Source: an uncultured Clostridia bacterium (GTDB lineage: Bacteria; Bacillota; Clostridia; Christensenellales; Borkfalkiaceae). Taken from it: DNA of 64,000 nucleotides. The first letter of the stretch is position 1. Every line of letters starts with the position of its first letter. The DNA is taken from the NCBI GenBank assembly GCA_944336975.1, contig CALVLH010000002.1, positions 62,001 to 126,000 on the forward strand, given 5' to 3'. Below are positions 25,365 to 29,505 of the stretch, piece by piece. The notes beneath the pieces are model-generated. The model was given only the letters and a program-made list of their open reading frames with translations, searched no databases and was not told the origin of the DNA. The translations under genes and the position numbers were made by a program.

Positions 25365-25468
25365 ATTTGTGAGAAAATATAGGATTTTTTTGTGAAAATG
25401 AAAAATTTTTTCACGGTTTGAACAATTTCTCAAAAATCAGACCCGCAAAAAATTTTTCGGAAAAATAT

Positions 25469-25497
25469 TTTACTTTTTTTTCGGAGGGTGCTATCAT
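25469..25497 (+). promoter_or_regulatory. Promoter of the candidate small RNA
   Basis: TTTACT (25469-25474), 17 bp, TATCAT (25492-25497), in an AT-rich intergenic tract that is unusual for this window. Confidence 0.5.
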
Positions 25498-25502
25498 ATA
25501 GG

Positions 25503-25614
25503 CACAATCAAGCGAGCGGGAAACCGCAAGCGAGATTTTAATCGGCTCATCATTTTCCCCCTTATCATATAGTAAAACCCCTCGGAACGCGAGTTTCGGG
25601 GGGTTTTACTTTTG
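25503..25614 (+). ncRNA. Candidate small RNA upstream of the TIR gene
   Basis: The 400-base gap between spmB and the TIR gene holds a promoter-like pair, about 70 bases of structured non-coding sequence, and an intrinsic terminator. Within it, GCGG-GAAA-CCGC makes a GNRA-type hairpin flanked by two copies of CAAGCGAG, and GAGC/GCTC can close an outer helix. No frame with a ribosome site is present. I could not match it to a known RNA family. A long-leader fragment or the end of the spmB transcript are alternatives. Confidence 0.45.
25574..25607 (+). terminator. Terminator of the candidate small RNA
   Basis: AAAACCCC/GGGGTTTT extended by CGgAAC/GTTtCG-like inner pairs with a GCGA-type loop. 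Confidence 0.8.
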
Positions 25615-25644
25615 TCTTCGGCGCATTCCGATGAATTTTACCCA

Positions 25645-25673
25645 TTGACAATTTCCGCCCCATCTGCTATACT
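25645..25673 (+). promoter_or_regulatory. Promoter of the TIR-NTPase-HD gene
   Basis: TTGACA (25645-25650), 17 bp, TATACT (25668-25673). The leader is about 85 bases. Confidence 0.82.
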
Positions 25674-25684
25674 TTATTTAATAA

Positions 25685-25716
25685 GAAAACGCGCCCGATA
25701 TGCTTCAAGGCGGTGC
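25685..25716 (+). terminator. Possible attenuator hairpin in the TIR gene leader
   Basis: AAAACGCGC can pair with GCGCGcTTTT (one bulge) across a 14-base loop, followed directly by six T. It lies between promoter and start codon, so it could cut basal expression. The stem is short and no antiterminator was identified. Confidence 0.35.
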
Positions 25717-25764
25717 GCGCTTTTTTCCTGCCTTCCGAAACTTTTATGCACAGGAGATGAGATT

Positions 25765-28700
25765 ATGTCGACCGATATTCCCCTTATCGAAAAGACGTTC
25801 GATCTGTTTATCGCTTATCACGGCACGAACGACGAGAACGGTTCCATGCAGGCCGCAAAAGAGATCTATCGTCTCCTGCAAGGAAAGATCGAGTGTTTTT
25901 TCAACCCCGTCACCAACCCGGGCGGGGCGTTCGGACAGACTCCCGTCTTTGCGAGTCATTCGCGGCTGTTCCTGCTCGTCGCAAACGATTCCATTCCCCT
26001 CAACGACCGCAGGGAAGTGGCGAGCCCGGGGCTGTATAACGAGATCGAAGCGTTTTACGGAAGCCGTTTCCATTCCAAGGACTGGCACGGAAAGGCGCGC
26101 GTTTTCGGCTACGACGGTCTCACCGCACAAAAAGCGGATCGCTTCCACGTCATCTTCAACATGGCGGAGCATTTCTGCACGCAGGATGTGGGCAGGGACG
26201 CCGCGCTGAAAAAACTGTTCAAATGGCTTTCCGACTCCCTGTCTTTGCCCGCGGAGATCTTCGGCTGTCCGTCAAACGCGGGCGCCGAAGCGAAGCTCCC
26301 CGCCGCGGACGACGGGTGCTGTTCGCCCGAAGAAGCGCTGAGCTTTTCGGCAAACTTTTTCCACCGCGGCGCGACCGCGCTCAAAACGGCGAGCGCAACC
26401 GCCGTCGAACGGGAACTGGAACGCTTTTCCCGCCTGTACCGTTCGATCACCGAGATCTCCCTGCTCGCAAACCCCAAACATCTTCCCGTGGAGGAAAACG
26501 TCGGAAAACAGCTTTGCGGCATCATCCTCGAAGAATGCCGCAAGGAAAACTCGCGCGACGTGATGAAGATAAAAGGGCCCATCGGTTCCTATAAAAACCG
26601 TCTCCTGCAATACATCTATCTGCTGATCCAGAAGACGCAACCGGACATCCTGCCTTTTTATATTGACGTTTCCATGTACGAAAAATTTTACGAGGACCAG
26701 AAAAACAGCCGCTATGACTCGGTCGAAGCGGCTGTCCGAGACAATTTTTCGTTGCTTAAAAAGCTGATCGTCTCCAATCCCGATAAGATCCCCCTGCTTT
26801 TTCTGGACGGCATCCGCGATTTTTCGTCGGGCAAGAATTCTCTCTATTCCCTCATCAACGGCGCCCTCGAAGGACTTTGCTATAAGCGGGTGGTCAGCCT
26901 CGACACCGATTTCACCGTCAATCCCAAAAACAAGATCAAGATGCACCCTTTGGCGCCTTCTAGGTTTACCTATTTCGTGCGCATCCGCTCCTTGCAACTG
27001 TATCGGAAGGAAGAGAGCATAGAATTCATCAAAAACTGCATCTCCCTTTTCCGCATCCCCGTCGTCGGCAACGTCACGCCCGAAGCGATCTACGACCGAC
27101 TCATCCAGCTCGATCTCATCTCTCTCGACGCCTATTGGATCGTCAAGCTGCTCACCCTTTTGCTCAACCACATCCTCAACGAGGAGATGACGGTCGCCGA
27201 CCTTTATCGGGCGTTCTGCGAACAGACGCTCGACTCCCCCTCTCAGCTCGATTCAGCCGCCGAACTTGCCTACGAATACGAATTCGGCACGCTTCCCTTT
27301 GACGAAAACAATTTCTTCTTCGACGTGCGCTGGAAGCTCATGCGCAAACACCGCAGCATTCTGGAATTCCTTATCGCAAAGCATTATGTCAACCGCTTTG
27401 CGGCGCTGTCCGCGCGGGGAGAATACAACGAAGAACAGCGCATCGCCCTTTCCTTCTTCGATATGGTCCTGCCCAAGCGCGTGACCCGCTTTGTGGTAAA
27501 GATGCTCAACGATACCGACGACTACGAGGAAAAAGTGCTTTATCTGGCTAAGCAGTATTTCCCGAATATGTCGCTGTTCGGAAAAAGCGAACTCACTTTC
27601 TGGATGGGACGGCTGAAAAACCGCGCCCGCCGCGAAGAATGCGTCGCCCTGCTCCGCCGTTATTATGACGATCAGAAAGCGGTTTACCGCCAGGCAAAGA
27701 CGGCGGCGGACAAGACGCAGATGGCCGTGCGGCAGGAAGCGTTTCTCCTGCGCGGGATCAGCGTGAGCCTGATCTACGGCGGAGACAAAAAGGTCCTGCA
27801 CGAATATCTCGATTCTCTGCTCGAAGACAAGACCGCAAACTCCATCAACCGCGGGTTCCATCTCGAATATTACGGCGACAAGCTTTACATCCCCAACCGC
27901 TCCGCGCTCGATTTCGAAGACGACGTGACGAAGGGCGAGATCACCTGCAATACGCTGTGTCTTTCTCTGGACAAGCGCCGCTGCTCCTTCCGTTTCAATC
28001 CCGTCTCCATGCTCGAACTCATGACGCTGTGCAGCCTGTTGCAGGCGCGCATGGAGCGTTACGACACAAACGGCGTTTTTCGCGTGGAGCCCTATCTCGA
28101 CAAGTGCGCGGGATATTTGGACTGGATGCTCGGCCGTCGCGAGATCGCCGATTTTCCCAAAGTCAAAGAATATTTCCGCTGGATGAAGACGCAGTTGGAA
28201 GCCTTTTCCGCAAGCGCCGCAAAAGGAGCCTATCACGGCATGAGCGCGCTCTATAACCGTTACAGCAAGGCAAACGAAGTTCCCCGCACGGGATGGGTGA
28301 ACCGCAAGATCCCGCACCCCGAAAACATCGTCGAACATATGTATAACTGCTGGCTGATGGGGCTGTTCTTTCTCCCCGACCGCTACGACGGCTATCCCGA
28401 TTACGACAAAAACGCCGTTTTGCAGATGCTCCTCCTCCACGACCTCGGCGAACGGGAAACGGGAGACATCCCGCGCCCCGAAAAACTGAAAAACAAAGAA
28501 TATTACGACGCCTGGGAAGACAGCGTCATGCGCTCCATTTTCCTGCACGGCTCCTATCCCGGCGCACCCGATCTCACGGAGTGCTATCGGTGTTGGGACG
28601 AGTGGTTCCGACAGGATTCCGTCAACGGAAAGGTGGCGAAGGACATCGACAACATTCAGGCGATCTACCAGATGTGCCGCTACTATCTGGAACATCGCGA

Positions 28701-28842
28701 TCTCATCGACACGGAAGATTATTATCAATGGCTTTTACAGGTCGACGACGTGGAGACGAACATCGGTCACAACATCTGCCGCAACGTTATCTTGCAGAAC
28801 GAAGAATTCCGCGACATTCTGCCTGAAGAACTTCTGAAATAA
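25765..28842 (+). CDS. TIR / P-loop NTPase / HD-hydrolase protein, candidate defense effector
   Basis: A 1025-residue three-part protein. Residues about 10-150 are TIR-like: FDLFIAYHGTND opens the first strand, SHSRLFLLVAND follows, and YNEIEAF (E93/E95) sits where TIR NADases carry the catalytic glutamate. Residues about 270-560 resemble a STAND-type ATPase with a variant Walker A KGPIGSYKNRLLQY (271-278) and Walker B KIPLLFLDGIRDF (D348). A helical region follows. Residues about 850-970 are an HD hydrolase of the YfbR/5'-deoxynucleotidase kind: VEHMYNCW (H858), LLHDLGERETGDI (H892, D893) and KDIDNIQ (D960/D962), spaced as in YfbR. This is known anti-phage vocabulary (sensor NTPase, NADase, dNTP hydrolase) in an unfamiliar combination. 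RBS AGGAGATGAGATT; a NUDIX gene follows after 12 bases. Defense function is inference. Confidence 0.8.
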   Translation: MSTDIPLIEKTFDLFIAYHGTNDENGSMQAAKEIYRLLQGKIECFFNPVTNPGGAFGQTPVFASHSRLFLLVANDSIPLNDRREVASPGLYNEIEAFYGSRFHSKDWHGKARVFGYDGLTAQKADRFHVIFNMAEHFCTQDVGRDAALKKLFKWLSDSLSLPAEIFGCPSNAGAEAKLPAADDGCCSPEEALSFSANFFHRGATALKTASATAVERELERFSRLYRSITEISLLANPKHLPVEENVGKQLCGIILEECRKENSRDVMKIKGPIGSYKNRLLQYIYLLIQKTQPDILPFYIDVSMYEKFYEDQKNSRYDSVEAAVRDNFSLLKKLIVSNPDKIPLLFLDGIRDFSSGKNSLYSLINGALEGLCYKRVVSLDTDFTVNPKNKIKMHPLAPSRFTYFVRIRSLQLYRKEESIEFIKNCISLFRIPVVGNVTPEAIYDRLIQLDLISLDAYWIVKLLTLLLNHILNEEMTVADLYRAFCEQTLDSPSQLDSAAELAYEYEFGTLPFDENNFFFDVRWKLMRKHRSILEFLIAKHYVNRFAALSARGEYNEEQRIALSFFDMVLPKRVTRFVVKMLNDTDDYEEKVLYLAKQYFPNMSLFGKSELTFWMGRLKNRARREECVALLRRYYDDQKAVYRQAKTAADKTQMAVRQEAFLLRGISVSLIYGGDKKVLHEYLDSLLEDKTANSINRGFHLEYYGDKLYIPNRSALDFEDDVTKGEITCNTLCLSLDKRRCSFRFNPVSMLELMTLCSLLQARMERYDTNGVFRVEPYLDKCAGYLDWMLGRREIADFPKVKEYFRWMKTQLEAFSASAAKGAYHGMSALYNRYSKANEVPRTGWVNRKIPHPENIVEHMYNCWLMGLFFLPDRYDGYPDYDKNAVLQMLLLHDLGERETGDIPRPEKLKNKEYYDAWEDSVMRSIFLHGSYPGAPDLTECYRCWDEWFRQDSVNGKVAKDIDNIQAIYQMCRYYLEHRDLIDTEDYYQWLLQVDDVETNIGHNICRNVILQNEEFRDILPEELLK

Positions 28843-28854
28843 GGAGGACGGACC

Positions 28855-29361
28855 ATGACGGATGAATTTTGGGATCTGTTTGACGAATCCCGCCGCCCCG
28901 CGGGGAGGACGCACCGCCGCGGCGACCGCATTCCCGAGGGACTTTATCACCTGGTCGTGCACGCCTGGATCGCCGCGCCGACGGGGAGACTGCTCTTCTC
29001 CCGCCGACAGGCGGGAAGACCGGACGAAGGGCTGTGGGAGCGCACGGGCGGTTCCGCCCTTGCGGGCGAGACGTCGCTCGAAGCGGCGAAACGCGAGACG
29101 GAAGAAGAACTCGGCATTTCTCTCGCAGACGCGCGCGTCCTCTTTTTCGGCAGCCGCAAACGCGAGGAATACCGCGATTTTTACGACTCCTGGATCTTTG
29201 TCCTGCCGGAAGAGCGCGCCCCCGTTCTCGATCCCGTCGAAGTGGCGGACGCCGCGTGGATGAGCGCGAAAGAGCTGGACGCCCTCGCGGCGGAAGGCAA
29301 GATCGTGACGAGCTCGCTCTATTACCGCGAGATCCTCGCCTTCCTCGCCCGCTCTCTCTGA
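28855..29361 (+). CDS. NUDIX hydrolase, isopentenyl-diphosphate isomerase-like (YfcD type)
   Basis: A 168-residue NUDIX protein. FWDLFDESRRPAGRTHRRGD and EGLYHLVVHAWI are typical of the YfcD/IDI-like subgroup, and the NUDIX box is GGSALAGETSLEAAKRETEEELG (about residues 62-84). It hydrolyses a nucleoside diphosphate derivative or related pyrophosphate; the substrate is not readable. RBS AAGGAGGACGGACC. It lies 12 bases after the TIR-NTPase-HD gene and shares its terminator, so the two form an operon. It might process ADP-ribose-type or nucleotide products of its partner, but this NUDIX subgroup is also common on its own. Confidence 0.92.
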   Translation: MTDEFWDLFDESRRPAGRTHRRGDRIPEGLYHLVVHAWIAAPTGRLLFSRRQAGRPDEGLWERTGGSALAGETSLEAAKRETEEELGISLADARVLFFGSRKREEYRDFYDSWIFVLPEERAPVLDPVEVADAAWMSAKELDALAAEGKIVTSSLYYREILAFLARSL

Positions 29362-29367
29362 ACGGAC

Positions 29368-29409
29368 AAAGGCGGGGCGCCCGACAAACTGTCGGGCGCC
29401 CCGCCTTTT
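29368..29409 (+). terminator. Terminator of the TIR-NUDIX operon
   Basis: An 18-bp stem AAAGGCGGGGCGCCCGAC with its complement, a 5-base loop and TTTT. It also faces the opposing rsmI gene. Confidence 0.92.
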
Positions 29410-29505
29410 CTGTTTTCTGAAATGTTCCCCTGTCTTGTCTGTTTCCTTAAAAATTTTCCCTGCGGGATCCGCGTTTTTCCGCAAGGTCCCTACCTTTTCC
29501 AAAGT

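Follow-up and report, generated by a model that had tools for sequence, protein, structure and literature searches.

A rare TIR-like, NTPase and HD hydrolase protein of an uncultured Clostridia bacterium: a candidate immune switch with a constant HD end

What would a single protein do with a TIR-like domain at one end and an HD hydrolase domain at the other, and which of the two ends would be its effector? The question is raised by a locus in a 64,000-nucleotide stretch of DNA (the window) from an uncultured Clostridia bacterium of the Borkfalkiaceae (assembly GCA_944336975.1, contig CALVLH010000002.1, positions 62,001 to 126,000), whose genome, a 1.72-Mb assembly in 29 contigs, holds one copy of the gene. 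One unbroken open reading frame (ORF; 25765..28842, plus strand, ATG to TAA) encodes 1025 amino acids. A preliminary description, made from the letters of the window, had recognized a TIR-like domain, a P-loop nucleoside triphosphatase (NTPase) and an HD domain in this one protein, and the ORF, its homologues and a Pfam HD_3 match bear out that architecture. The protein belongs to a family of 12 distinct members (the window protein and 11 others, with L010, whose contig is as long as that of G586, counted once together with it), all 12 of which keep the NTPase, the helical region behind it and the HD domain, and which differ at the N-terminus. Our leading reading, held tentatively, is of an accessory STAND-like switch, probably laterally acquired, with a constant NTPase, helical region and predicted HD enzymatic end and with the TIR as an optional second effector. 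The parts of the protein are as follows.

25765..28842, plus strand: TIR-like / NTPase / helical / HD protein, 1025 amino acids (ORF, Pfam, family alignment)
25765..26259, plus strand: TIR-like domain, residues 1-165 (hhalign to the N-terminus of L004; E93 codon at 26041-26043)
26527..27054, plus strand: P-loop NTPase region, residues about 255-430 (Walker A at 26572-26598, Walker B at 26794-26811)
27055..28209, plus strand: all-helical middle region, residues 431-815, with the conserved INRGFHLEYYGD block (AlphaFold secondary structure)
28210..28824, plus strand: HD_3 hydrolase domain of HDDC2/YfbR type, residues 816-1020 (H858, H892, D893, E896, D962; Pfam and PDB match)

A constant HD end and an exchanged N-terminus

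Judged by its sequence, the C-terminal domain is certainly an HD domain. Pfam HD_3 matches residues 838-977 with E 4.8e-23 (82.3 bits vs a cut-off of 22.5), and the YfbR-like model reaches 22.2 bits, under its cut-off of 25.9. The sequence matches in the PDB are led by HDDC2 (E 4.7e-15), followed by 1xx7 (oxetanocin-like), YGL101W and DatZ (E 1.6e-6), and the best PDB match of a profile built from the HD domains of the family is likewise HDDC2 (4dmb, E 5.4e-20). The active-site Asp of HDDC2, which is Ala in PDB chain 4l1j, aligns with D962 of the window protein, and the predicted metal-ligand set is therefore H858, H892, D893 and D962; the HD hydrolase with a YfbR-type H/HD/D pattern that had been proposed is thus recovered with its ligands in place. 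YfbR and HDDC2 act on deoxynucleoside monophosphates (dNMPs), and DatZ acts on deoxynucleoside triphosphates (dNTPs). Pfam finds HD_3 in 12 of the 12 family members, and R841, W844, H858, H892, D893, E896, D901 and D960 are invariant among them. The position of D962 holds Asp in nine members and Asn in the three with a strong TIR_2 N-terminus (L028-L030), whose other HD motif residues are kept.

In the middle of the protein a variant P-loop NTPase precedes a helical region. The unusual Walker A, GPIGSYKN (G274, K277), in which Asn follows the Lys, and the Walker B, LLFLDG (D348), are present as previously described and are kept across the family, with G274 and K277 invariant in all 12 members and D348 nearly so (Glu in L029). 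Pfam, run on the window protein up to E 10, returned no NTPase family, and a profile of the NTPase-helical core gave no sequence match in the PDB up to E 10. The AlphaFold model (4 sequences) has a mean predicted local distance difference test score (pLDDT) of 56.6, with block means of 57-88 for residues 281-350 and 54 for the Walker A block at 271-280. Foldseek, run with this weak model, placed the STAND protein 6mfv first (E 1.6e-4, TM-scores 0.13/0.18), the sole match counted below 0.001; the remainder of the list is mostly ORC/Cdc6 AAA+ chains, with Apaf-1 sixth. On this modelled basis the NTPase may be assigned to the STAND type.

The N-terminus appears TIR-like, with a catalytic-type Glu, when traced through its homologues. 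In hhalign, a profile of the window's TIR subtype matched the N-terminus of L004 (E 7.9e-9), a protein that passes Pfam TIR_2 (28.3 vs 28.0 bits), as well as L032 (E 4e-11), which is itself under the TIR_2 cut-off; among PDB chains, a mixed TIR profile matched the tir-1 NADase (E 3.7e-4). E93, the first Glu of YNEIEAF, falls at the catalytic position and is shared by all 10 of the TIR domains aligned and by all 7 of the close set, alignments that leave out the divergent N-terminus of G032. Pfam gave no TIR match on the window protein up to E 10. The subtype profile alone, searched against the PDB, found no TIR, its sole matches being Rictor chains with E 0.12 or worse, and against a group of four TIR_2-type domains it returned E 0.003 but a probability of 10.5, which counts against TIR homology. 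Of the N-terminal TIR proposed earlier, what stands is the likeness through homologue profiles together with E93; a direct Pfam match is missing.

Window-like TIR domains are also joined to other partners in L031, L032 and L139-L150, namely IF-2B, DUF5919, TPR and methyltransferase-like domains (the last below cut-off, in L031). In the taxonomic family, 17 of 201 genomes have a match to the window-type TIR profile, carriers of the TIR-HD gene included. For a methyltransferase protein at L028:6467-7852 a TIR was read by eye, and Pfam finds only the methyltransferase.

The family is rare. Of 151 genomes in the taxonomic family, a whole-protein scan matched 8, in four cases only through the TIR or the HD, and a scan with the NTPase-helical core found it in 10 of 398, own genome included. 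With the same core, our genome was alone among the 391 of a class draw and the 398 of a phylum draw, and L011's own genome alone matched among 150 genomes of its family. A scan of named genomes led to three loci.

It is at the N-terminus that the members part. Four carry the window's TIR subtype (window, G010, G586, G585) and G055 a TIR_2-grade domain; the N-terminus of G032 is TIR-like by eye, with no Pfam match there. Three distant members have strong TIR_2 N-termini by Pfam (G661, E 2.5e-20; G539, E 8.8e-19; G657, E 3.4e-21) and carry HD_3 in the same chain (E 4.5e-19, 4.9e-24 and 1.1e-20, respectively). The N-terminus of L011 is winged-helix-like (Trans_reg_C, E 0.022, weak and below cut-off), that of L009 is helical with no family assigned, and G607 (L027:8337-12035) consists of NTPase and HD without an N-terminal domain. 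Upstream of G607, at a distance of 12 bp, lies an ORF of 243 amino acids whose N-terminus is of membrane type and which matches no Pfam family; it may replace the missing module.

Identity to the window protein is 30-50% over the HD domain and 13-38% over the TIR-type N-termini. In a tree of the core, which leaves the branching around the window open, the shortest paths from the window protein lead to L011 and L009, members with non-TIR N-termini that come from named metagenome-assembled genomes outside the family-scan returns. Among the TIR domains, those of G010 and G585 resemble that of the window protein most (38% each), and from this discordance we infer domain shuffling. By these comparisons of sequence, the TIR is the exchanged end of the protein and the HD domain its constant end.

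Matches on two Streptomyces plasmids (L117, L118) were set aside as full relatives, the annotated HD ORFs there having 193 amino acids. With the L028 protein as query, the similarity extends upstream of the HD ORF as well, by about 126 residues in one case, into an unannotated stretch, and by about 84 in the other, into a helix-turn-helix regulator gene; these matches possibly represent a split relative of the middle region and HD domain.

Genomic site, neighbours and the NUDIX gene

The window gene lies between genes that we take to be spmB and rsmI; these labels, like spmA, trmN6, metG and the term housekeeping itself, were given by eye. Read in this way, the region is otherwise housekeeping, in agreement with the preliminary description. 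The rsmI-like gene is present in 41 of the 41 genus genomes searched. Twenty site regions were hand-picked from 40 other genomes, of which 15 are comparable, with both the spmB-like and the rsmI-like gene seen, and the other five break off or differ. The TIR-HD gene and the NUDIX gene behind it are both missing between the two flanking genes in all 15. In 14 of the 15 the interval (25365-29505 in the window) holds a membrane protein of 479-534 amino acids, judged alike by eye; the L094 copy is Pfam Wzy_C, O-antigen ligase, and our own genome has a 34% homologue on contig C8. The usual membrane gene may have been replaced at this site, or lost before the TIR-HD gene was inserted.

A core gene shared by all relatives, an outcome that would have told against the preliminary description, is not what the genomes hold: with 10 carriers in 398 family genomes, our own genome alone in the class and phylum draws and 15 of 15 sites without the gene, a core housekeeping gene was ruled out. 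Carriage by 10 of 398 and absence from 15 of 15 sites instead indicate an accessory gene, probably laterally acquired and plausibly anti-phage.

In the window, the gene and its downstream neighbour are accompanied by the following features.

25571..25610, plus strand: terminator-like hairpin 5' of the 1025-residue gene (18 pairs, consensus match only)
25645..25673, plus strand: sigma-70-like promoter, TTGACA-17-TATACT (11 of 12 consensus matches, consensus only)
28855..29361, plus strand: NUDIX hydrolase ORF, 168 amino acids (Pfam NUDIX, E 4e-16; PADLOC PDC-S07, E 7.9e-11)
29368..29408, plus strand: terminator-like hairpin 3' of the NUDIX ORF (19 pairs, consensus match only)

As consensus matches, the promoter-like site and the two hairpins would frame both genes as a separate unit. 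The promoter and the common terminator of the preliminary description each have a candidate here, and the 12 bp between the two ORFs is confirmed. AAGGAGG precedes the ATG of the NUDIX ORF, which is probably cotranscribed with the larger gene. Sigma-70-like sites of this quality number 7 in the 64-kb stretch vs 1.4 in shuffles; terminator-like sites, at 8 vs 6.4, are not enriched as a class. Compared by overall G+C only, since some of the ORFs used for comparison proved spurious or out of frame, the 1025-residue gene has 54.3%, the lowest among the stretches compared, and the NUDIX gene 64.9%.

The NUDIX box is intact by eye, and the PADLOC match is to a NUDIX-type candidate model, a match that alone is insufficient to establish a defence role. 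Of 103 genus genomes, 17 (our own among them) have relatives of this NUDIX, and none of these relatives lies beside a TIR-HD gene within the fetched flanks; the flanks fetched around the other carrier loci contain no homologue at E 1e-8, and L029 has a different NUDIX-like ORF, read by eye, 7.7 kb away. The functional partnership suggested earlier is not borne out by this distribution, and we rejected the NUDIX as a conserved partner. It may have arrived at the site together with the TIR-HD gene, and it is most likely a passenger or local helper outside the core.

Around the carrier loci, Pfam was run on 19 chosen neighbours (10 + 9 proteins) of carriers and TIR relatives and on four cluster genes; recombinase, integrase or TIR genes stand by four of the 12 loci among the neighbours scanned, a count in which chance neighbourhood is uncontrolled. 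G010 has a serine recombinase and an IS200 transposase close by, and G586 a phage-integrase-like gene; a TIR gene accompanies both G055 and G585, in the former together with a recombinase and in the latter with a macro-domain gene. DUF4062 in G585 is below cut-off.

In G661 (L158:1399-15755) and G657 (L159:2719-17484), which belong to two species, the TIR-NTPase-HD gene is the first in a conserved series of five or more genes; after it come a membrane protein, a protein read by eye as vWA-like (without Pfam support), a Tubulin_2 protein of 1242 amino acids, confirmed by Pfam, and a further ORF; the five are 53-63% identical between the two genomes. The genes directly upstream differ, and one match 7-8 kb upstream suggests a shared chromosomal neighbourhood, so that the linkage may reflect common descent. 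The Tubulin_2 protein has close relatives in 2 of 103 genus genomes (G661 and G657) and distant ones in four more; G539 carries the TIR-HD gene without the cluster.

Relation to known systems

We class the protein with STAND/TIR-type immune proteins; the architecture itself is without precedent in the literature searched. The preliminary description knew of no system of this build, and the passages returned by our search of open-licence PubMed Central (PMC) articles likewise contain no TIR-NTPase-HD protein. In PADLOC-DB 2.0.0, the ThsB, SAVED_TIR and Aga-TIR models each match up to 3 of the 12 members, the window protein not among them, and LmuA matches one of the 12 (E 1.2e-4).

The HD domain shares its subfamily and its RTGW, H, HD, E, D motif pattern with HDDC2, YfbR, YGL101W and DatZ; the matched chains there measure about 175-215 amino acids, whereas the window HD ends an NTPase of roughly 1000. 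To STAND proteins (6mfv, Apaf-1) the likeness, seen in a low-confidence model, is a P-loop NTPase followed by a helical region. STAND proteins usually have Ser or Thr after the Walker A Lys, where the window protein has Asn, and they usually carry repeats at the C-terminus, where it has an enzyme domain. With Thoeris ThsB, SAVED-TIR and Aga-TIR it has in common a TIR with a conserved Glu, in contrast fused here to an NTPase and an HD domain; ThsA, SAVED, cyclase or Argonaute genes did not turn up among the neighbours scanned, although no targeted search for them was made.

The nearest ideas in print, in the literature searched, are Clover and the HD domains of animal TRADD-N proteins. In PMC12265719, Clover and SpdGTPase are HD deoxyguanosine triphosphatases (dGTPases) that act in immunity, as anti-phage effectors on deoxynucleotides; a deoxynucleotide-directed role of this kind is only proposed for the window HD. 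CloA of Clover is a dGTPase paired with a nucleotidyltransferase gene (CloB), whereas the window HD is of the HD_3 type and fused to its switch. The downstream neighbour of the window gene is a NUDIX by Pfam, and the other neighbours were read by eye as spmB and rsmI. The TRADD-N proteins resemble it in bearing a C-terminal HD on an immune-type protein, named a potential enzymatic effector in a passage of PMC8195603; they are eukaryotic, and that passage has no TIR-NTPase-HD chain.

HD effector or HD sensor

Under the accessory-switch reading, an infection cue would meet the helical part, upon which the NTPase would switch and the protein assemble, as may be supposed from its STAND relatives. 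The HD domain would then hydrolyse deoxynucleotides, either dNMPs, like YfbR and HDDC2, or dNTPs, like DatZ, and their loss would starve phage replication; the TIR, where present, would add cleavage of nicotinamide adenine dinucleotide (NAD+). That HD dGTPases act in immunity in Clover and SpdGTPase was counted in favour of the HD domain as effector here. A wider version, which we consider doubtful, would see here a modular family of immune proteins, with two predicted nucleotide-destroying sites under one STAND-like switch, for NAD+ in the TIR and for deoxynucleotides in the HD domain, and with a constant HD end opposite an exchangeable N-terminal one; this would give double metabolite depletion from a single gene, or transcriptional or membrane outputs in other members.

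Several observations weigh against the accessory-switch reading. The Asn at the D962 position in three TIR_2 members suggests that HD catalysis may be lost there. The AlphaFold model, a weak basis for the STAND assignment, leaves both ends unmodelled, with pLDDT below 50 over most of the HD domain at residues 824-950 and mostly below 50 over residues 37-151 of the TIR; residues 1-165 folded alone (2 sequences) reached 37.6. No PADLOC-DB family matched the window TIR-HD protein, even with the threshold relaxed to E 1. The window, G032, G607 and G539 loci lie, by eye, among housekeeping genes, and the mobile-type neighbours elsewhere come from the uncontrolled set described above. Scans of viral contigs, seeded by 2-6 short peptide patterns and of limited reach, gave no match; plasmids and phages gave partial matches only, plasmids being the one of these two sets scanned with the canonical-TIR member.

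The strongest rival, in our view possible though rather unlikely, makes the HD domain the sensor and the N-terminal module the output: the HD domain would bind or turn over a nucleotide that changes in infection (e.g., dNMPs from degraded DNA), the NTPase would switch, and the TIR would cleave NAD+ or the winged-helix version alter transcription. STAND proteins usually have their output at the N-terminus and their sensor at the C-terminus, an order that fits this arrangement, as does the fact that the N-terminus is the swapped part, one variant weakly resembling the DNA-binding Trans_reg_C below its cut-off. The TIR_2 members with Asn for the metal-ligand Asp look as if binding were kept and catalysis lost. 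Nine of the 12 members nevertheless have the full H/HD/D set expected of an active enzyme, and G607 has no N-terminal output domain, although its upstream membrane-type ORF could stand in. It is improbable, in turn, that the effector is the HD domain and that the TIR serves only for assembly or as an adaptor, without NADase activity, perhaps pairing with other TIR proteins of the cell. The fusion of related TIRs to unrelated partners is what one expects of an interaction module, and the divergence of the window TIR, which escapes Pfam and whose subtype profile finds no TIR in the PDB, is in line with it; the invariant Glu at the catalytic position and the match of the mixed profile to the tir-1 NADase argue for an enzyme.

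We regard as no less improbable a role outside defence, as a regulated protein of nucleotide salvage or signalling in gut Clostridia. HDDC2 and YfbR relatives are housekeeping dNMP phosphatases, and four of the loci sit among genes read as housekeeping, but the patchy carriage, the absence from all 15 sites, the domain swapping and the recombinases near some loci are unlike salvage genes. Very improbable, finally, is a two-gene system in which the NUDIX processes nucleotides released by the TIR and the HD domain. The short gap, the shared terminator-like hairpin and the PDC-S07 match agree with it, and the joint absence of the two genes from the comparable relatives suggests that they may have come in together; the lack of a NUDIX homologue in the fetched flanks of the other carriers and the unlike G+C of the two genes speak against it.

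On the accessory-switch reading, the switch protein has one fixed end, the HD hydrolase, and an opposite end that is exchanged. The small and clear-cut family has invariant residues that make point-mutant tests simple, and the question of effector or sensor is open to direct test in it. If the two predicted activities are real, NAD+ loss and deoxynucleotide loss, known from separate systems, would be joined under one switch.

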